NCBI GenBank assembly: GCA_020723305.1 | Contig: DYJC01000015.1 | Location: 1 to 64,000 of the forward strand | DNA length: 64,000 bases | Reading direction: 5' to 3' | DNA from: Desulfosudis oleivorans | GTDB taxonomy: Bacteria; Desulfobacterota; Desulfobacteria; Desulfobacterales; SURF-7 | In this document: one piece after another, positions 42,001 to 58,935 of the stretch | Layout: each line of letters begins with the position of its first letter | Numbering within the stretch: the stretch's first letter is position 1 | Made by a program: the position numbers and the translations under genes | The notes under the pieces: generated by a model | Databases searched by the model: none | What the model was told of the DNA's origin: nothing | What the model saw: only the letters and a program-made list of their open reading frames with translations

Positions 42001-42040
42001 TTGACAGCTTTATTTAACAGTGTTAAGTTAACGATGTTAA
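42001..42040 (+). promoter_or_regulatory. Promoter overlapped by two TetR-type palindromes
   Basis: TTGACA (42001-42006) and TAAGTT (42024-42029), 17 bp apart, form a plausible promoter. Within and after it are TTAACA-G-TGTTAA (42014-42026) and TTAAC-GAT-GTTAA (42028-42040), both perfect inverted repeats. Placement over the spacer and -10 suits autorepression by the TetR protein encoded 33 bp downstream. The divergent DUF3187 gene may share the site. Confidence 0.6.
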
Positions 42041-42072: not shown

Positions 42073-42726
42073 GTGCCAAAAGCACCTCGAAATTCCAATG
42101 AGATATTGATCGTAAAAGAGAAGATACTGGATGCTGCCCTTGATATTCTGTTTGAGGAGGGTTTCCATTTCTTAAGCATGCGCAAGATCGCCGTAAAAAT
42201 GAAAATGACCGCGGCCAACCTGTATAACTATTTTTCAAACAAGGATGAAATCTATCTGGCGATTCAAACCAGGGGGTTTGCATTGCTGAACAAACATTTT
42301 GAAGAGATCAATCAATCCACAAAAGCCCCTCTGGATAAAATCCGGCAGATGGTCCGTACCTATGTAGACTTTGGAATCCATCACCCTGATCAGTACGAGA
42401 TCATGTTTACCCGGAATACTCCAAAATACAGCGATTATATCGGGACAAGTCTTGAACCTGTTGCAACAATCGAAAAACAGACCGCGCTGAAGGTTGCGGA
42501 GGTTGCGACAAATGCCTTCCTGGAACTGGCAGAAAAAAAACCGTTTATTACCATTCAGGAGGCGGGGTATCGGACGATTCAGATGTGGACAGCCCTTCAT
42601 GGAATCGTCTCTTTGATCAACAGCCGTGTCCTTCAAGAGGTTGATCCGGATACAGATGCAATGGTTGAAAAACTTACAGAAGAGCTGTTACTGCCGTTCA
42701 TGGATATCAAAGGAGATTTTACATGA
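42073..42726 (+). CDS. TetR-family regulator of the glycyl-radical operon
   Basis: A 217-residue repressor. The start is the GTG at 42073, preceded by GAGGAG; upstream in-frame TTG and ATG codons lie in the operator region. The helix-turn-helix reads LSMRKIAVKMKMTAANLYNY followed by FSNKDEIYLAIQTRGFA. The C-terminal domain contains HPDQYEIMFTRNTPKYSDYI, seen in the TetR_C_13-like (WHG) group. Its stop overlaps the ATG of the glycyl-radical enzyme as ATGA, making it the local regulator of that enzyme. The inducer is unknown. Confidence 0.9.
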   Translation: MPKAPRNSNEILIVKEKILDAALDILFEEGFHFLSMRKIAVKMKMTAANLYNYFSNKDEIYLAIQTRGFALLNKHFEEINQSTKAPLDKIRQMVRTYVDFGIHHPDQYEIMFTRNTPKYSDYIGTSLEPVATIEKQTALKVAEVATNAFLELAEKKPFITIQEAGYRTIQMWTALHGIVSLINSRVLQEVDPDTDAMVEKLTEELLLPFMDIKGDFT

Positions 42727-45700
42727 GAATCAACAAACAACTTCATCAATACCTCAACCTGTTGCTGCTGACATCTCCAAAGCAGCTCATTCCGGAAATG
42801 GGAACTGCAAGGATGCTGAACCGCCTGACACATGTCGCACTTCAACTGATGGCCATTCAGTTCAATCTCCGGCCATCCCTGAAAAAATATATGAAAGGCA
42901 GGGACGGATGGATCAACTTTTCCGTCGGGTTCCGATCTGCGTCCCAAGGTGTTGAACAGGCCATCATTTTCCGGAACGGCCGGGTTCGGGTTCAGGGAAC
43001 CATTCCGGAAGATGTGGATGTGACCCTGAAATTCCTGGATGACCATGCATTGAAAGAAATGGCCTTGAGCACACCCAATGAGATGCTCAACCTGATCCTG
43101 AAAAACCGGATGGTTCTGGATGGAAACCTCTCCTGTCTTCAGGTATTCAACTACTTTATTTCACTTGTCATGGGAAAACTTCATCGGCAGATGCTGAAAC
43201 GTTCCTTCAGAAAAGATATCCAACACCGGAAAATGACGTTTGGCGGCTGCAATCCGGAACTCTCCAAAACCCTGGCGGAACGGAAACAATACCGGATGCG
43301 GAGTGAAAAGGAAAAAGATCCGAATGTTCTGTATCTTTCCGACCCATATCTTTCCGATTACAGCATTGAAGACTTCCCGAGGCTGAAAAAATTCTTTGCC
43401 TTTCATTTTGATACCCTCCCGGAAATATGTGCTGAACGCCCGAATATTCTGACAAACTGGTATCGGGAAAACGGCTTTGAAAAGGATTCAGAGGGTGCGC
43501 CCTGGTTCCCTGAATTACGCCAGGCCCTGGCATTTCAACATCTGATGACATTTAAAAAACCGGTGATCCGGGAAGACGACTTACTTGCCGGGACAACCAC
43601 TTCCAAAGAAGTGGGTGTGACTGTTTTCCCGGATGGGCAGGGCAACATGATCTGGGGGGAACTCAATTCCCTGGAGGAAAGGATTCTCATTCCCTTTTCC
43701 TGTTCCAGAGAAACCGCCGATATCCTCCATCATGATGTATTTCCGTTCTGGTTGAACCGGAATTTCAAGGAATATGTACGAATCCAATTCCATTATCCAG
43801 TCTGCCAGAAGCTGGATGAACGGTTTGTCGCCTATTTTGTATGGAAATCGGTAGGCATCAGTCACACCATCCCGAATCTGAAAAGAGTCCTTGAGAAAGG
43901 GATATCCGGTATCCTTGAAGATATCCGGTTTCGATTGCAGGACTGCTCCATTGACAAAGTTCAACAATTTTCGTTGGAAGCAATGATCCATGCCCTGCAA
44001 GGGGTGGAGCGATATGCAGTAAACCTTGCAGAGGAAGCTTTCCGTCTGGGAAAAAAGGAAACAAGGCCGGATCGCAGAAAAGAGCTGATCCATCTTTCGG
44101 AAATCTGCCGGAATGTCCCGGGAAAACCTGCCCAAACGCTGGATGAGGCCGTCAACTCCATCTGGATTGTCTGGATCAGCCTCCATATGGAAAATGCCAA
44201 CACCGGACTGTCACTGGGCCGCCTGGATCAGTGGCTTCAGCCTTATTTTAAAAAGGATATGGAAAAACAGACCTCTGATGCGGAAAAACGAAATTTTATC
44301 CAACATGCCATCGAGCTGGCGGGCTGCCTGATCATGAGGCTTACCGACCATGTCCCTCTTCTGCCGGATATTGCCAACTACCTTTTTGGAGGTGCTGCCT
44401 CCACTCAGGCCATCACCTTAGGAGGGGTCACATGGGAAGGGGAAGATGGAGTCAATGACATGACATATATCTTTCTCAAGGCAGTCGAACTGCTGCCGGT
44501 CCGGGATACCAACATCAATGCCCGGTATCATACGGAAAAAAACAGTGACAACTATCTGAAACGTCTCTGTGAAGTCAATGTCATCACTTCAGCCACACCG
44601 ATCATGCAGAGCGATACAGCCATGATAAAAGCCTTGAAACCGCATGGATATTCAACAGAAGAAATCAATGACTGGGCTGCCACAGGCTGTGTGGAACCGA
44701 CAATACAAGGACGCCATTTCGGGCATACCGGATCAATCCTGTTAAACCTGGTTGCTGCGATGGAAATGGCATTGAACAACGGCACACATCCCCTGATGAA
44801 ATGGAATGTGGGTCCTGAAACCGGCAGTATTGAAAAGGGAGACTTTTCATGCTTTGAAGACTTTTTTCAGGCTTGGCGAATCCAGCAGCAGTTTATCATC
44901 GACCAGGCGGTTGAATTGAACAACATGCTGGGCCAGGCTCATCAGAAGCTCAGGCCCACGCCTCTATTGAGCGCACTCATTGACGGATGTATTGAATCCG
45001 GGAAAGACCTGGTTCATGGCGGAGCCCGGCACAACAGTTCCGGAACATCCAACATCGGACTGGCTGATGTCACGGATTCCATGATGGTCATAAAAAAGCT
45101 GGTGTTTGATGAAAAAAGGGTATCCTTCATGAAACTCAAAGCAGCCATGGATTCGGATTTTACAAATGACCCGGCCCTGCATGCCATGGTTCGGAACAGG
45201 GTAGCGCTGTTCGGTTCCGGTAACCAGGAAGCACTGGAGATGTGCCGACGGATCACGGAAACGATTCATGACTGCTGGCGGAAACATACAAACGGGAGAG
45301 GCGGAAAATATACGGTCGGTTTCTGGTCCATGTCCCAGCATGTGGCCTATGGCTCTCTATCCGGAACACTGCCTTCAGGAAGATTGGCTGGAAAGGCATT
45401 TACTCCCGGGCTTACGCCGAGCCCAAAAGCATCCAGAAATTTTCTGGACAATCTCTCCTCCGTTGCCCGGCTCAATCCGGAACATATGGACAACAATATT
45501 GCATTCAACGTTAAACTGACGCCGAATCCTAATGATAGCCGTGAGAAAACAGTCGAAAATATGCATGCATATGTAAAATCCTATTTTCAGCAGGGGGGAA
45601 TGCAGATGCAGTTCAATGTCGTGACCTCGGAGATGCTGAGGGATGCCATGGCAAACCCGGACAGTTATCGGAATCTCATGGTACGGATATCCGGCTACAA

Positions 45701-45770
45701 TGCCTACTTTGTTGCCTTGAATAAGGATATTCAGATTGAATTAATTGAAAGAACAGAGTATGGATTGTAA
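42723..45770 (+). CDS. Glycyl-radical enzyme with N-terminal SCP2-like extension
   Basis: A 1015-residue pyruvate-formate-lyase-superfamily enzyme. The catalytic thiyl cysteine is Cys656 in ATGCVEPTIQG, with Glu658 as in the CutC/glycerol-dehydratase-type lyases. The radical glycine is Gly991 in VRISGYNAYF. The core begins near residue 200 (LSDPYLSDYSIEDF). About 150 residues before it are not PFL-like and resemble an SCP2/sterol-carrier domain (VEQAIIFRNGRVRVQGTIPE; LKEMALSTPNEMLNLILKNR). The two-residue CVE pattern argues against classical PFL. The reaction (C-C, C-N or C-O cleavage, dehydration or fumarate addition) is not readable. No radical-SAM activase is within the operon or window. 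Confidence 0.9.
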   Translation: MRINKQLHQYLNLLLLTSPKQLIPEMGTARMLNRLTHVALQLMAIQFNLRPSLKKYMKGRDGWINFSVGFRSASQGVEQAIIFRNGRVRVQGTIPEDVDVTLKFLDDHALKEMALSTPNEMLNLILKNRMVLDGNLSCLQVFNYFISLVMGKLHRQMLKRSFRKDIQHRKMTFGGCNPELSKTLAERKQYRMRSEKEKDPNVLYLSDPYLSDYSIEDFPRLKKFFAFHFDTLPEICAERPNILTNWYRENGFEKDSEGAPWFPELRQALAFQHLMTFKKPVIREDDLLAGTTTSKEVGVTVFPDGQGNMIWGELNSLEERILIPFSCSRETADILHHDVFPFWLNRNFKEYVRIQFHYPVCQKLDERFVAYFVWKSVGISHTIPNLKRVLEKGISGILEDIRFRLQDCSIDKVQQFSLEAMIHALQGVERYAVNLAEEAFRLGKKETRPDRRKELIHLSEICRNVPGKPAQTLDEAVNSIWIVWISLHMENANTGLSLGRLDQWLQPYFKKDMEKQTSDAEKRNFIQHAIELAGCLIMRLTDHVPLLPDIANYLFGGAASTQAITLGGVTWEGEDGVNDMTYIFLKAVELLPVRDTNINARYHTEKNSDNYLKRLCEVNVITSATPIMQSDTAMIKALKPHGYSTEEINDWAATGCVEPTIQGRHFGHTGSILLNLVAAMEMALNNGTHPLMKWNVGPETGSIEKGDFSCFEDFFQAWRIQQQFIIDQAVELNNMLGQAHQKLRPTPLLSALIDGCIESGKDLVHGGARHNSSGTSNIGLADVTDSMMVIKKLVFDEKRVSFMKLKAAMDSDFTNDPALHAMVRNRVALFGSGNQEALEMCRRITETIHDCWRKHTNGRGGKYTVGFWSMSQHVAYGSLSGTLPSGRLAGKAFTPGLTPSPKASRNFLDNLSSVARLNPEHMDNNIAFNVKLTPNPNDSREKTVENMHAYVKSYFQQGGMQMQFNVVTSEMLRDAMANPDSYRNLMVRISGYNAYFVALNKDIQIELIERTEYGL

Positions 45771-45814
45771 TTAAAATCACAATTGAAAACATTGCTTTGA
45801 TACGGAGAAAATTT

Positions 45815-46759
45815 ATGAAAAACAAAATCCTGGTTCTGATTCAGATTTTACTTCTGGCTTTATTATCCGGATGTGCCTCCATGCAGGAGAGCTTTTATCG
45901 TTTTGGAATCGACCGGGAAAGAAGCCAATCTGATCTGGTTTACAAAACAGTGAATGTTGAAGGCGAAACCGTTTCCTACCTGGAGAGGGAAGGAAAAGGA
46001 GAAGCTGTTGTTCTCCTGCACGGATTCACGGCAGACAAGAACAACTGGCTCCGGTTTGTCCGGTACCTTCCGGAAACATACCGGGTCCTCGCCATCGACA
46101 TGCCGGGACACGGAGATAATGTTCAGGATCCCACAAAAAAATATGACCCTGTTTCTCTGAGCCAGGGGATCGAAAAAACCATCCATTCCATCGGTCTGAA
46201 GCGATTCCATCTCGCGGGGAACTCTCTTGGAGGACTGGTATCCAAAATCTATGCATCAAACCATTCGGACAATGTGATCACACTGGGATTGTTTAACTCC
46301 GCCGGTGTTACATCCCCTACTCCAAGTGAATTCAGGGCGGCTCTGGAAAAAGGAGACAACCCTTTTGTGGTCAAAACAAGAGAGGAATATGACCGGCTGG
46401 GTGAATACGCCTTTTATGATGAACCGTTTCTGCCGTGGCCGATTCACACTGTCATGGCCCGAAAATATATCAGCAGAAATGATTTTAACCAGAAAATGTT
46501 CGGGGATATAAAATCCAGTCCGTTTTTCCATGATGAAAAATCACAGATGGATCTTCTATCTCATTTGAAAATGCCGGTTTTTGTGATCTGGGGAGATAAA
46601 GACAGACTGCTGCACGTATCCAGTGTTGAAATTTATCAAAAGGAATTACCTCAGGCTGAAACCGTGATCCTGAAAGATTGCGGGCATCTGCCCATGCTTG
46701 AACAGCCGGAAGAATCGGCAATGCATTATACTGAATTTCTTGTAAAGCATCCGGAATGA
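45815..46759 (+). CDS. Lipoprotein alpha/beta-hydrolase
   Basis: A 314-residue protein with lipobox LLALLSGC near residue 19, so membrane-anchored outside the cytoplasm. The alpha/beta-hydrolase motifs are VVLLHGFTADKNNW (oxyanion region), LAIDMPGHGD, the nucleophile elbow AGNSLGGLVS, the acid in IWGDKDRLLH and the histidine in DCGHLPMLEQPEE. It likely is an esterase or lipase. The ATG at 45815 follows GGAG; the gene is 44 bp after the glycyl-radical enzyme and is the last of that operon. Joint control with the radical enzyme suggests that it releases or traps a hydrophobic substrate. Confidence 0.88.
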   Translation: MKNKILVLIQILLLALLSGCASMQESFYRFGIDRERSQSDLVYKTVNVEGETVSYLEREGKGEAVVLLHGFTADKNNWLRFVRYLPETYRVLAIDMPGHGDNVQDPTKKYDPVSLSQGIEKTIHSIGLKRFHLAGNSLGGLVSKIYASNHSDNVITLGLFNSAGVTSPTPSEFRAALEKGDNPFVVKTREEYDRLGEYAFYDEPFLPWPIHTVMARKYISRNDFNQKMFGDIKSSPFFHDEKSQMDLLSHLKMPVFVIWGDKDRLLHVSSVEIYQKELPQAETVILKDCGHLPMLEQPEESAMHYTEFLVKHPE

Positions 46760-53901: not shown

Positions 53902-55062
53902 TCACGGGGATAGGAGATCGGACACCCGCCTGAAATACTCTTCCCGGCATTGGTTCTCGATATGGAACAGATTGGAAAATGGCCTGTAAAAGTCTTCGCT
54001 GCCGATTGTAAACAGGCCATGACCAAATACAATGACGCCATCATGCTCTTGGATGGCCTTTGGAACCGTGTTGCACAGACCGTACACACCGGTTCCAACT
54101 TCTCCCGGAACAACCGGAATCCCGCAGATGTCCCGTTCTTCGCTGCATTGGATATGGCATTTTCCCTTTTGATCGCAACCTGCTTTGTCGCAATCCATGG
54201 AAAGAATGACGGAAAACTTTGGATGTCCATGCAAAATGGTATGGCATCCGGTTTCCCGGATGATCCCGAGATGGGCATCCAGTTCACTGGAAGCGGTGAT
54301 GCCGGTACAGGAAGTGCCATCCATGGGAACCGGATCAATACAGCCGGTCAGGTTATCCAGTGAACTTCCGGTCTGACTGATATAAAGAATATTCCCCAGC
54401 CGGCAGGAGATGTTGCCGAAGTAGGAATCCACCAGTCTGTTTTCAACCGTTAACCGGCCGGCTTCATCCATGGCTTCCAACACAAGCTGCTCTGAATCCA
54501 ATGGCCCTTTTATCAGAGAGCCGGTAAAAGAGGGATAAGGATCAAGCATCTTCACTACCTGGCTAAAGGTTTTTTGAAACAGATGATCCACACTCCCGTT
54601 TCGAAGAGCCCAAAGATAATCTGAAAAAAACTTGACAAAGCAGGCAAAACAGATGGAAGAGTAGGTGACATATGCCTGTTCCAGGCTGACCATGCCATAG
54701 GTAATCAAACCAAGATCCGGTATGATCACACCTTTTCTTTTTTTCAATATGGTGACAATTTCTCCAGTATCTAATGTTCGAGAGATGGGAAGATCATGAA
54801 GGAATGTCCGTGTCTCACAATCTTCCGGATAAATCACTCCCTTTGATGTCTCGGCAAGATAAGAAATAATCGTCTGATAGGGCTCAGCCGGTTTTGAGAA
54901 TAAAATGGAATTAATGCTCAACCCCTGTATAACCTTTTCCAGTAGGGGAATGGATGAATCGTTTCTGTTCCATTCCAGAGCAGCATCCAGAAATCCCATA
55001 AGCGGCGATGACCTTTCCGTCAGGCCACCGGCACACAGTTTTTTTTCAAATTCCAAAAACAT
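53902..55062 (-). CDS. Class II aldolase/adducin family protein
   Basis: A 386-residue protein. The C-terminal 200 residues are the zinc-dependent class II aldolase/adducin domain: SYFGNISCRLGNILYISQTG, ELDAHLGIIRETGCHTILHG followed by HPKFSVI (HxH metal motif) and a third histidine in VFGHGLF. The N-terminal 180 residues are not recognised. Relatives handle fuculose-, ribulose- or methylthioribulose-phosphates. The ATG at 55062 shares one base with the stop of the aldehyde oxidoreductase (TAATG), after GGAG, so they are coupled. It converges on fba, 33 bp away. Confidence 0.83.
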   Translation of the reverse strand: MFLEFEKKLCAGGLTERSSPLMGFLDAALEWNRNDSSIPLLEKVIQGLSINSILFSKPAEPYQTIISYLAETSKGVIYPEDCETRTFLHDLPISRTLDTGEIVTILKKRKGVIIPDLGLITYGMVSLEQAYVTYSSICFACFVKFFSDYLWALRNGSVDHLFQKTFSQVVKMLDPYPSFTGSLIKGPLDSEQLVLEAMDEAGRLTVENRLVDSYFGNISCRLGNILYISQTGSSLDNLTGCIDPVPMDGTSCTGITASSELDAHLGIIRETGCHTILHGHPKFSVILSMDCDKAGCDQKGKCHIQCSEERDICGIPVVPGEVGTGVYGLCNTVPKAIQEHDGVIVFGHGLFTIGSEDFYRPFSNLFHIENQCREEYFRRVSDLLSP

Positions 55063-56813
55063 TATATCCACTCCAGTCCCAGCTCGCTCGCCTTTTCCGG
55101 AACCGGCATGCCATCCTGATCCAGACCCCGGACCGTGTAATAATCGGAAAGTGACTTCTGAAATGCATTCCTGTCAATGGGCTTGAGGATAGAATCAGAC
55201 AAGTCTGCTTTTTTTTCCATAAAAAACCGGGGCGGCAGATCATCATCCTTTCTTGAAAATCCGTTTTTTGCATTCATCATCCGTTCCTGATAGCAGATCC
55301 GCTCACCGATTTTCAGCAGATCCTGGCCGGTAATACTCTGACCGGTAACAGCCGAAAATACGGATGCATACTCTTCCAGAGATGCAGCGAAAAAAGTGAA
55401 TTTACAGGCTGTCAAAGAGTCCACGACTGCATTGACATCCTCATTGATCTTAATGATCCTGGCTTTTCCGGCAAACTGGAATCGATCCGTAGCCACGGGT
55501 TTTCTTAAAATCTCATGACTGATGGGATAGGCTCTCAAATGACAGGCACCCCTCGTGGACACGGCAAAAGCCAAGGCCATACCCAACGCGCCACGCGGAT
55601 CATAGGCGGACAAATCCTGATTTTTTACCGCAACGGCTGCATCCGGTTTTCCGCAGGATTGCGCATACCTTGCTGATCCCATTCCCAGGTTTGCATATGA
55701 TCCTTTTCCATAAGCAATATCCAGAAGCACTTCCACAATCTTAGCGGAAGAAATCGGATGCCCGCTGATTTCCTGATAGCATGCCAGTGTCGAGGCAGCA
55801 GAGATTGTATCCATCCCCATTTCATTGCAGATCCGGTTTGCCTCCATGACCACCTCCCTGTCATGATTTCCGATCAGCGCGCTGAAATGGGACATGGTTT
55901 CAAACTCCGGTATGGATCTGCCGGTATCCGTTATCTTTTTACATTGCACATGACATCCCCTGCATCCGGTTTTCTTGGGCTGAAACTGTTTGTCATAGGC
56001 ATGGGCATTCATGGATGCTGCATCGGGAAATTTTGTTTTTTGAAAATTGTCCGTTGGCATCATATTCCGGGCATCCATCAGGTCATACAATGCCCCTGTT
56101 CCATACTTGGATATTCCAAACCTGCCGGAAATAACGGGGGATGCCGACATCAGGCGCATGATCTCTTCCCGGGCTTTCTTCAGATTCCCAGGATGGAAAA
56201 TACGGGTTTTCCCGGTTCCTCTGACGGTAATGTATTTCAGGTTTTTTGCGGCAAATATCAAACCCAGGCCATTTCTTCCTGCAGCATAATGTTTGTCTAT
56301 AATAATATTGGAAAACCGGACATTGTTTTCCGCCGCCGGCCCGATGGCAGCCACCGATCCATGACTTTTGAGACCGGCCCATGCTTGAGATGTTGTCATC
56401 CCTCTCATTGCATCCGCAGAAACGATCTGAATGGAAGCATCCTTAATCTCGATGCCCACTGTATTAGAGCTTCTGCCGGTGATGATCATGCCATCCAGCC
56501 CGGCCTTTTTCAATTCCGTACCAAAACGACCGCCAACCGAGCTGTCACCGATGGTTCCGGTAAGGGGTGACCGTGACATGAATGTGCTTCTGCCGGGAGT
56601 GGGAGAGATTGTATGGGTAAGTGGCCCGCAAAAAATCAACACCGGCATTTCCGGATCATCCCAGGCCAAATGGATATGGGGAGCCAGATAGTGACCGGCA
56701 AGGCCACGACCACCTATAAATTTATGGTAAACAGATTGCTCTGGTTCCTCTATTTCCCAGGATTGAGTGGTAAGATCGATTTTCGCTATCTTCCCGCACC
56801 AGCCATACATCAT
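55062..56813 (-). CDS. Aldehyde:ferredoxin oxidoreductase (tungsten, AOR family)
   Basis: A protein of about 583 residues. N-terminal YGWCGKIAKIDLTTQSWEIE and FIGGRGLAGHYLAPHIHLAW, then FCGPLTHTISPTPGRSTFMS, are AOR landmarks. Cluster cysteines are CRGCHVQC in the middle and a fourth in DSLTACKF near residue 470. GRNGLGLIFAAKNLKYITVR is the pterin-binding region. AORs oxidise aldehydes to acids, or reduce acids, with ferredoxin. Start near 56813: the first ATG at 56822 is only 1 bp from AAGGA. Transcribed with the activator upstream and the class II aldolase downstream. Confidence 0.9.
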   Translation of the reverse strand: MMYGWCGKIAKIDLTTQSWEIEEPEQSVYHKFIGGRGLAGHYLAPHIHLAWDDPEMPVLIFCGPLTHTISPTPGRSTFMSRSPLTGTIGDSSVGGRFGTELKKAGLDGMIITGRSSNTVGIEIKDASIQIVSADAMRGMTTSQAWAGLKSHGSVAAIGPAAENNVRFSNIIIDKHYAAGRNGLGLIFAAKNLKYITVRGTGKTRIFHPGNLKKAREEIMRLMSASPVISGRFGISKYGTGALYDLMDARNMMPTDNFQKTKFPDAASMNAHAYDKQFQPKKTGCRGCHVQCKKITDTGRSIPEFETMSHFSALIGNHDREVVMEANRICNEMGMDTISAASTLACYQEISGHPISSAKIVEVLLDIAYGKGSYANLGMGSARYAQSCGKPDAAVAVKNQDLSAYDPRGALGMALAFAVSTRGACHLRAYPISHEILRKPVATDRFQFAGKARIIKINEDVNAVVDSLTACKFTFFAASLEEYASVFSAVTGQSITGQDLLKIGERICYQERMMNAKNGFSRKDDDLPPRFFMEKKADLSDSILKPIDRNAFQKSLSDYYTVRGLDQDGMPVPEKASELGLEWI

Positions 56814-56840
56814 CAAGGACATTCCTTTTCCATTTGTTTC

Positions 56841-58433
56841 CTACTCTCCGACAGCAGACAGATGCATGCCCTGCTGATAAACCGGCTTATGGATACCCAG
56901 CCGTTTCATCCTGGAGGCAAATGTGGAACGGTTTACTCCGGCATCGCGGGCTGCCCATGTCACATTCCAGTGATGCTTCTGAAGAAGATAGAGTGCATAT
57001 CTTTGCTCTACCTCATCCCAGGTAACATTGCCAAAATCCATTCCAACCTTTATACACTCTGTTGGATGTGAATGGGAAGCGTCATTTTTAACAGAAGAAA
57101 ACAAATTTTTAATAACCCGTGGCTGTTTCCGGCTGGTAAACTGAATGGGAAGATCCTGTGGAGTGATATAATCATCATCCGTTGCCACCAGTAAATATCT
57201 CACCAGATTCTCCAGTTCCCGGATATTGCCCGGCCATGGATAGGTCATGAGGCATCTCATGGTTTCCATTGTTCTTTTCTTGGCCGGGATACTGGTTTTA
57301 ATCGATTCCCGGTTCATAAAATGGTTCATCAGAAATGGAATATCCTCCTGCCTCTCCCGTAATGAAGGGAGATCTATGGGCAGGACGGAAAGGCGATAAA
57401 ACAGATCCTCCCTGAACTCACCCATATCAACCAGTTTCTCAATATTTTTATTGGTTGCCGAGATAATCCGGATATCAATTTTTTTTACATGGATTTCACC
57501 CAGGGGTTTGATTTCAGAATTCTGAATCACCCGGAGGATTCGCGCCTGAAGGTTCATGGGCATATCCCCAATCTCATCCAGAAAAACCGTACCCCCTTCT
57601 GCTGCCTCAAAGAGCCCGATTTTATCTTTCACTGCACCGGTAAACGCTCCTTTTTTATACCCGAAAAGTTCACTCTCCAATAGATTTTCCGGTATGGCAC
57701 TGCAATTCTGCACCAGAAACGGTTGATTACTGCGATTGCTGAGACGATGGATTTCACGGGAAACCAGTTCCTTTCCGGTTCCACTTTCACCGGTTATCAA
57801 TACAGGATATTCGGTGCGTGCATAGCTTCGAATCTTTTCCATGCAGCTTTGAAAACAGGGGCTGTGGCCTACCAGCGCTTCATTTCCTCTGATCTCCTCC
57901 AGGGTGTTTTTCAATGCCTGTGTTTCTTCCATCTGTTTGTTGAACAGAATGGCGTTGCTTAATGCCAGAGATCCGATATTCACAAGATCCTGAATATGGC
58001 CAAGGTATCCTGAATCCAGATTGATTCGATCTTTTTCAGGGCTTGTATCAATCAACTGAACAGCCCCATACACTGTATTGTTTCGTAAAAAAAGCGGAAA
58101 ACAGAGAATCAGACGGCTCTTTACAGACAGATGCTCTTCAAACTCCTTATAATGCCGGGGGTCTTGATTGGGATTGGATACCGTCATTTTACCATTCTCG
58201 ATAACCCACCCCACAATGCTCTGCTGATCCTCATGGATTTCAGCACCAAAAAGATTCTCACATTGACGGCCGACCGCCTCAATGCAACGATATTTATTCT
58301 CCTTTTTGATCCAGATTGACCCTCTTTCAACATTCTGAAGTTTTAAAAGGGCGATCAAAAATTTTCGCTGCAACTCACCAGGATCAAGTTCCTCGGAAAA
58401 CGATTTAAATAATTTAAAAGGTTCATTCTCCAT
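56841..58433 (-). CDS. Sigma-54-dependent activator (GAF-AAA+-Fis HTH)
   Basis: A protein of about 530 residues. A GAF domain ([19 protein letters not shown], about residues 10-170) senses a small molecule. The central AAA+ domain has Walker [14 protein letters not shown], the GAFTGA loop in [14 protein letters not shown] and Walker [15 protein letters not shown]. The C-terminal Fis-like helix-turn-helix is [20 protein letters not shown]. There is no receiver domain. The ATG at 58433 after GAGG is preferred, though an ATG 27 bp upstream is possible. It should activate a sigma-54 promoter, probably its own (see 58535-58549). Confidence 0.92.
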
Positions 58434-58935
58434 TTTGGTATCCTCTTTGGATTCGCGCATATCCATAACCTCATCATAATGTTGAACACATTTATACTGT
58501 TCACCTTTTCGAAATGTTCTATTTGCAGGACTTTGCAAAATAGATACCATGATTCTATTCCAAATGGATTGATTCACCCGGATGATTGCGTAACAGGCAC
58601 GTTAAACCATTTTCAGATCAACACAAAATTGGTTTCTGATGATATCCAGATCATAATTGCCGAAATGCAGGCAAACTGGTGATATATAATCAATAGTGAT
58701 GAAATATAATTAAAGATTTTGAGTTCCTTTCGTCTGTCCGGACTCCTGATATTTTCATTATTATACGGATATCAGTTAATTATATAAAAATAATCCGCCA
58801 TGGCACAGATTATGATTACCTGAATATACACAAATCGTTTTCGTGAACAAAAATGTACATCTTTGTCTGATATCGTGCATGACGGTTCATCGTAAACGAA
58901 AAAAAATGAGTGCCGTCCCCCGAAAGGAGAATAAA
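58434..58935. other. Divergent intergenic region of the sigma-54 operon and the zinc-ribbon gene
   Basis: These 502 bp hold no supported gene; an open frame at 58479-58682 lacks a ribosome site or domain character. The candidate sigma-54 promoter described separately lies at the left end. The right end must hold the promoter of the gene at 58936. The middle is AT-rich with no clear inverted repeats. Confidence 0.5.
58535..58549 (-). promoter_or_regulatory. Candidate sigma-54 (-24/-12) promoter of the activator-AOR operon
   Basis: On the minus strand TGGTATCTATTTTGCA has GG and GC separated by exactly 10 bp, with TTGCA at -12 and TGG-A- at -24; only one core position of TGGCAY differs (C to T). 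It lies about 100 bp upstream of the activator start. This suggests that the operon is transcribed by the sigma-54 holoenzyme and that the activator regulates itself. Confidence 0.45.

Follow-up and report, generated by a model that had tools for sequence, protein, structure and literature searches.

A glycyl-radical enzyme with a probable SCP2-like N-terminal domain and its relatives in the Desulfobacterota

We analyzed a 64,000-nucleotide stretch of DNA from Desulfosudis oleivorans (contig DYJC01000015.1; hereafter the window) that encodes an oxygen-sensitive glycyl-radical enzyme (GRE) of 1015 amino acids at 42723-45770 on the plus strand, between a TetR-type repressor and an alpha/beta-hydrolase. 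On balance, the evidence leans toward this enzyme belonging to a widespread, apparently undescribed GRE subfamily in which the catalytic barrel acts in concert with a lipid-binding module of SCP2-like type. We read the subfamily as lyases or dehydratases whose amphipathic substrate would be bound by the SCP2 domain. To our knowledge, the GREs characterized so far have small molecules or hydrocarbons as substrates, and a lipid-binding module occurs in none of them. In the open-licence PubMed Central (PMC) literature we found neither a GRE combined with SCP2 or a sterol carrier (a match in wheat bunt fungi was unrelated) nor a link to membrane-spanning lipid synthesis, and the available excerpts of the literature on benzene and limonene mention no similar GRE.

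The N-terminal domain and the spread of the subfamily

The first-pass annotation had described the enzyme as 150-200 residues longer than usual at its N-terminus. The excess is about 215 residues, since the best-scoring solved GREs align only from residue 217-265 on; the alignment to solved GREs places the beginning of the GRE core near residue 220. Domain profiles match the core with 541 bits at residues 231-877 (PF02901) and 91 bits at residues 893-997 (PF01228). The extra part, residues 1-215 including a linker (42723-43367, plus strand), is probably an SCP2-like domain, with the SCP2 match at residues 56-142. This assignment, which had also been proposed earlier, comes from profiles of the family, the window copy alone staying below the Pfam cut-off. 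When 88 aligned N-termini were compared with the chain sequences of the PDB, three matches appeared at E values up to 10, all of them SCP2 proteins with E around 0.04. The SCP2 profile PF02036 was found at E 0.01 or better in 18 of the 88 N-termini (best 3e-6), and a paralogue from the same genome scored 24.0 bits, above the cut-off of this profile. Alignment of the family N-termini with 28 SCP2 domains by hhalign gave 83% (E 8.8e-6, 82 columns); the seven controls, of which six were unrelated alignments and one was SCP2 reversed, gave at most 0.4%. Adding 27 stand-alone homologues left the result practically unchanged (84%).

When the N-terminus served as query, 83 of the 389 genomes in the class contained a match, whether fused or stand-alone, and a profile search of the phylum matched the domain in 49 of 395 genomes. 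Relatives that carry a name are metagenome-assembled genomes (MAGs) of Desulfobacula, Desulfobacteraceae and Desulfobacterium. Flanking DNA was fetched for many hits of the first search, together with 19 stretches from weaker profile hits and one from the genome of the window. Ninety fused GREs, the window copy included, were read in 56 genomes, the label fused also covering a few enzymes cut at contig edges. Two or more occur in 24 genomes, with up to four per genome, some in tandem around one activase. The weaker matches were stand-alone proteins of 131-250 residues. At 24 of the 29 fetched stand-alone loci there is an adjoining GRE that is 36-42% identical to P0001 and lacks the N-terminal domain, which ties the SCP2-like domain to the window-type GRE in both a fused and a split form. 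The order in split loci is mostly GRE, SCP2-like protein, activase. The other five stand-alone loci contain a short GRE-like fragment (two loci) or no GRE (three loci).

In a phylogenetic tree, the fused GREs (31 rows) formed a clade with SH-aLRT support of 100 and the split GREs (14 rows) one with support of 98. The branch joining both had support of 100 (90 in a first, simpler tree) and lay apart from the labelled CutC and HpsG sequences as well as the remaining five GREs of the genome. Rows were partly chosen and partly random or first in the list, several outgroup branches are long, and the tree excludes the outgroup row L240 (wrong frame, 1385 vs 846 aa), L233 (probably likewise) and L248 (a duplicate of L236). 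The fused and split GREs thus appear as a real, widespread and apparently undescribed subfamily with the split form as sister group; a phylogeny of this kind had been suggested as a check in the first-pass annotation.

The genome of the window (97.9% complete, 47 contigs) encodes seven GREs, among them the paralogue mentioned above, a full-length SCP2-GRE with 46% identity (G000:C31:178798-181836; L030, L103). It has its own activase, followed downstream by an amidohydrolase and an aldehyde ferredoxin oxidoreductase. Five loci (L129, L134, L139, L140 and L141) have pairs or triplets of fused SCP2-GREs, tandem or divergent, around one activase; such sets could possibly form hetero-oligomers or serve different substrates. 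Split loci (L117-L125, L208-L224) also feature DUF6765 (13 of 29) and an unnamed family of 200-820 aa (15 of 29), two scanned members of which had no Pfam match. Strong SCP2 domains were further seen within open reading frames (ORFs) of 700-930 aa at L169-L179 in several genomes, sometimes as neighbouring pairs (e.g. G296:C48, G062:C96).

A module of this kind might only place or assemble the enzyme, as a membrane tether, dimer interface or partner contact, while the substrate is small and soluble, such as a diol, amine or sulfonate. We regard this as unlikely, though it is the strongest of the alternatives. CutC of GRM2 loci provides a precedent, having a large N-terminal extension thought to act in encapsulation or assembly (PMC6325248). 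The core of the window enzyme scores alike with several GREs that use small substrates (CutC 362, glycerol dehydratase 355 and HypD 322 bits), and its extreme N-terminus resembles an amphipathic helix by eye. On the other hand, retention of the domain in both a fused and a stand-alone form fits a working partner, the pocket positions of diol dehydratases are replaced, and the genome lacks microcompartment shell genes. Targeting to a microcompartment was rejected, as the shell profile PF00936 had no match in the genome; the same search was positive in 2 of 14 control genomes.

Active site and relation to known GRE classes

The catalytic residues Cys656, Glu658 and Gly991 are intact, as had been noted before, and align with the GCVE motif and the RVAG glycine of solved GREs. 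Cys656, Val657 and Glu658 are invariant in all 112 sequences of the subfamily (89/89 fused, 23/23 split), and Gly991 is present in all 109 sequences that cover its position. Trp311 and Ser380 occur in 112/112 fused and split sequences and in 0/5 of the other GREs of the genome; His381 is found in 108 of the 112. The enzyme has the features of the superfamily: a PFL-like barrel, a glycyl-radical domain, the active-site cysteine, the C-terminal glycine and an activase encoded in the genome. Judged from these residues, the enzyme falls into the C-x-E group of dehydratases or lyases and has a predicted pocket of its own.

Scores against NCBIfam models all stayed below the cut-offs. The window GRE reached 386 of 1050 bits for CutC (TIGR04394), 398 of 1100 for HypD, and 373 and 343 of 1000 for HpsG and HpfG (sulfopropanediol dehydratase). 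The broad subfamily TIGR01774 gave 508 of 678. The score for pyruvate formate-lyase was 130 of 994, and the motif in the window GRE is GCVE; the active site of pyruvate formate-lyase is a Cys-Cys pair. Among solved entries named alkyl- or benzylsuccinate synthases, 4pkc scored 166, 9o8u 209 and 8iof 314 bits, the last lying near the dehydratases.

These data bear on whether the enzyme is an ordinary choline lyase or diol or hydroxyproline dehydratase in which the added domain alters little. The glutamate two positions after the active cysteine and the GCVEP sequence agree with those classes, and in our reading Thr494, Gly495 and Thr669 lie opposite the T, G and T of CutC and His381 opposite a histidine of glycerol dehydratase. 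However, the equivalog scores for CutC, HypD, HpsG and pyruvate formate-lyase are far too low, that for TIGR01774 also stays below its cut-off, Thr494 is present in just 29 of 89 fused sequences, and the subfamily forms a separate clade. We therefore consider membership in a known class improbable.

Activase supply, repressor and neighbouring genes

No activase is present in the TetR-GRE-hydrolase operon of the window. The first-pass annotation had deduced from this absence that activation occurs in trans and had suggested a genome search, which revealed a candidate. Five activases score above the TIGR02494 cut-off, of which four adjoin GREs and one, on contig C4, is unpaired. The C4 activase is intact (306 aa, 286 bits), is 92% identical over 305 aa to an activase located between two fused GREs in genome G086, and is the best match of many activases that adjoin fused GREs. 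The region just before its ATG contains a GRE-like C-terminal remnant (L106:8440-8525), a reading frame ending in YLQIELIKSTQYGL and a stop, which resembles the end of the window GRE, DIQIELIERTEYGL. The stop of this remnant overlaps the activase start, as in intact operons. In G080, a genome of the same genus, a fused GRE cut at a contig edge precedes the same downstream genes as at C4, with no activase between. We take C4 as a broken-up GRE-activase operon whose activase stayed in the genome, and this activase is probably the one that would serve the window GRE. A PIN-type gene pair, recognized by eye, lies ahead of the C4 remnant.

The absence of a local activase is not a feature of the family, since an activase lies nearby in 35 of the 60 well-flanked fused GREs, a set that includes the window copy. 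This count refers to the same strand within 3.5 kb and thus misses divergent activases such as that of L144; the TetR, activase and short-chain dehydrogenase/reductase (SDR) models behind the neighbour counts were built from the same loci. Of the 25 fused GREs without a neighbouring activase, again including the window copy, 19 come from genomes in which another fetched copy does have one. A second copy in G143, also of the same genus, adjoins an activase of the C4 kind (55% identical). Judging by these genomic arrangements, members of the family seem commonly to receive their activase in trans.

The TetR-family repressor gene (42073-42726, plus strand; PF00440 45.7 bits, PF13305 44.5 bits) most likely starts at the GTG at 42073, which is in frame and preceded by GAGGAG; this earlier start assignment is preferred over position 42001, where the longest ORF begins. 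The GRE start codon at 42723 overlaps the end of the TetR ORF at 42726 by 4 nt (ATGA), in line with the translational coupling that had been proposed. Ahead of the likely TetR start, two tandem 13-bp palindromes of the form TTAAC-N3-GTTAA, TTAACAGTGTTAA-G-TTAACGATGTTAA, occupy 42014-42040 and form a putative operator with 0 mismatches; none occurred in 100 shuffles. The tandem site is unique in the genome at up to 3 mismatches, where a reversed-pattern control also gave one hit per strand. With one mismatch allowed, the single palindrome recurred close to the TetR start in 31 of 50 TetR regions, compared with a mean of 6 and a maximum of 11 in block shuffles. A scan of about 1.44 Mb of fetched loci for the tandem form (up to 4 mismatches) placed 33 of 34 hits at a TetR start and gave 2 hits in the shuffled set. 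These 34 hits represent 27 distinct places because of shifted re-hits, and the scan used one strand and one block shuffle; L103 was scanned twice and had no hit. The pattern fits a local repressor with a conserved putative operator.

That the window GRE is a degenerating copy on its way out after loss of its activase is very improbable: no activase lies nearby and operons of this type do break up in the genome, as the C4 locus indicates, but the enzyme is full-length with its catalytic residues kept and a perfect operator, is 82% identical to an orthologue of the same genus that likewise lacks an adjacent activase, and still has an activase of the right kind available in trans.

The GRE is followed by the alpha/beta-hydrolase at 45797-46759 on the plus strand (likely start ATG 45815; PF00561, Abhydrolase_1, 87.3 bits), and the membrane anchoring claimed earlier is consistent with a lipoprotein-type signal whose lipobox, LLSGC, was identified by eye. 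At L011, a hydrolase with 90% identity stands directly behind a GRE fragment that is 96% identical, and no activase match was found within the 6.3 kb of that locus. In G143 the hydrolase (83% identical) lies 5.3 kb downstream of the orthologous GRE. Three other loci have distant hydrolases only (74-92 bits). A role of the hydrolase in freeing the substrate is thus weakly supported, the gene being kept only in these two near relatives.

The idea of a dedicated TetR-GRE-hydrolase system is supported for the repressor and not for the hydrolase, which was rejected as a general component, close copies existing only in L011 and G143. Among the 60 fused copies flanked on each side by 3.5 kb of sequence, TetR is a neighbour in 40, an activase in 35 and an SDR in 15. 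A comparison of gene order in relatives, called for in the first-pass annotation, hence finds TetR, activase and SDR genes recurring and the hydrolase rarely; adjacent activases occur, none of them with a known substrate.

The extended SDR that we tested is distant from lipid-type reductases (HpnA 129 of 368 bits, OleD 101 of 580). Against solved structures, one SDR had many general SDR or dehydrogenase hits and the other a single 'putative oxidoreductase'. Downstream of the orthologous GRE, G143 encodes a crotonase-like protein (by eye), an ADP-forming acyl-CoA synthetase, a KamA-type radical-SAM protein and the hydrolase. Taken together, the neighbour genes would fit a carbonyl product derived from an amphipathic substrate.

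A few further observations concern these surroundings. An extended and a classical SDR are apparently fused into a protein of about 620 aa adjoining the GRE at L087:5843-7687, and similar lengths occur in L071, L072, L081, L085, L092 and L095, judged by length and ends. The KamA-family protein of G143 (L126:13371-15251; TIGR00238, 317 bits) is encoded between GRE and hydrolase. In the window, the upstream neighbour of the TetR-GRE-hydrolase set is a divergent DUF3187 gene, and a branched-chain-amino-acid-type ABC transporter, recognized by eye and by clustering, is oriented toward the set at its opposite flank, so that the set stands as a unit. About 9 kb from the GRE, the gene at 55062-56822 (minus strand) clusters with the aldehyde ferredoxin oxidoreductase of the paralogue, and that at 56841-58577 (minus strand) belongs to a cluster that also adjoins SCP2-GREs in L103 and L104.

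Proposed mechanism and comparison with known systems

In the mechanism that we propose, the TetR repressor, whose gene has a dedicated tandem operator in front, would control the TetR-GRE unit. A hydrophobic ligand, either the substrate or an acyl-CoA-like product, would lift repression. The C4 activase or that of the C31 paralogue, both candidates identified from sequence, would then generate the radical on Gly991 in trans. The SCP2-like domain would grip the greasy tail of the substrate and present its polar head to Cys656 and Glu658 for a dehydratase- or lyase-type elimination, as in the C-x-E class. Judging from the neighbour genes of relatives, a carbonyl product could be passed on to SDRs, an aldehyde oxidoreductase or acyl-CoA enzymes.

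Several observations weigh against this reading. The window GRE alone scores 13.7-17.1 bits with PF02036 (cut-off 21.3), 70 of the 88 N-termini fall short of E 0.01 with this profile, and five stand-alone domains compared directly with SCP2 by hhalign gave only 7.6%. AlphaFold models built from an input of 4 rows (the window and related-locus sequences) had pLDDT values of 38 and 37, and with the N-terminal model (pLDDT <40) Foldseek returned nothing at E 0.001 or better. Although helices and strands follow an SCP2-like order in these low-pLDDT models, this order was kept out of the evidence. SCP2 folds may instead serve contacts or tethering. The GRE remnant at C4 is short, with 20 residues at 55% identity and E around 0.001, and G080 (89% complete, 510 contigs) has a fused GRE and a closest activase of only 45% identity. 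Neighbours also vary: 45 of the 60 well-flanked loci have no SDR, and both SDR and activase are missing next to the window copy. A hydrophobic substrate is what we infer from the sequences; the neighbouring genes name none.

A bolder proposal, which we put forward only tentatively, is that the subfamily represents a new GRE class in which membrane-type lipids or long-chain amphiphiles, presented by the lipid-carrier module, undergo radical elimination, with alkylglycerols, sphingoid-like amino-alcohols or phospholipid head groups as candidate substrates. If this is true, anaerobes could dismantle or remodel lipid heads without oxygen. A common clade with an SCP2-like domain, fused or separately encoded, would widen the reach of anaerobic radical chemistry and give relatives of sulfate reducers an unnoticed lipid-turnover route. 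Since the family comes with a repressor operator and related activases of its own, ligand binding and activation could be assayed before the substrate is identified.

Compared with known systems, the window GRE resembles CutC in its core, the GCVEP motif and the glycine loop, and the phmmer alignment pairs its Gly495 and Thr669 with matching residues of CutC. It differs from CutC by its low score (386 vs 1050 bits), its separate clade, an extension that is SCP2-like and not GRE-like, and the absence of shell genes. With the B12-independent glycerol and diol dehydratases (1r8w, 5i2a) it shares the C-x-E pair, and His381 lies opposite a histidine. In those enzymes, as seen in 1r8w, the CVE loop is followed by GWHD and preceded by GHS, whereas the window GRE has GHTG and NTG at these places; with the His-Asp after the loop replaced, the dehydratase pocket is not reproduced. 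The best PDB match is 2f3o, 'Pyruvate formate-lyase 2', presumably from Archaeoglobus fulgidus (364 bits), which shares the GCVE motif but has 776 aa and no N-terminal domain. The SCP2 family (PF02036, e.g. 1c44) resembles the N-terminal part through the 82-column hhalign match, the window copy by itself scoring below the Pfam cut-off, but here the domain is fused to, or encoded beside, a GRE.

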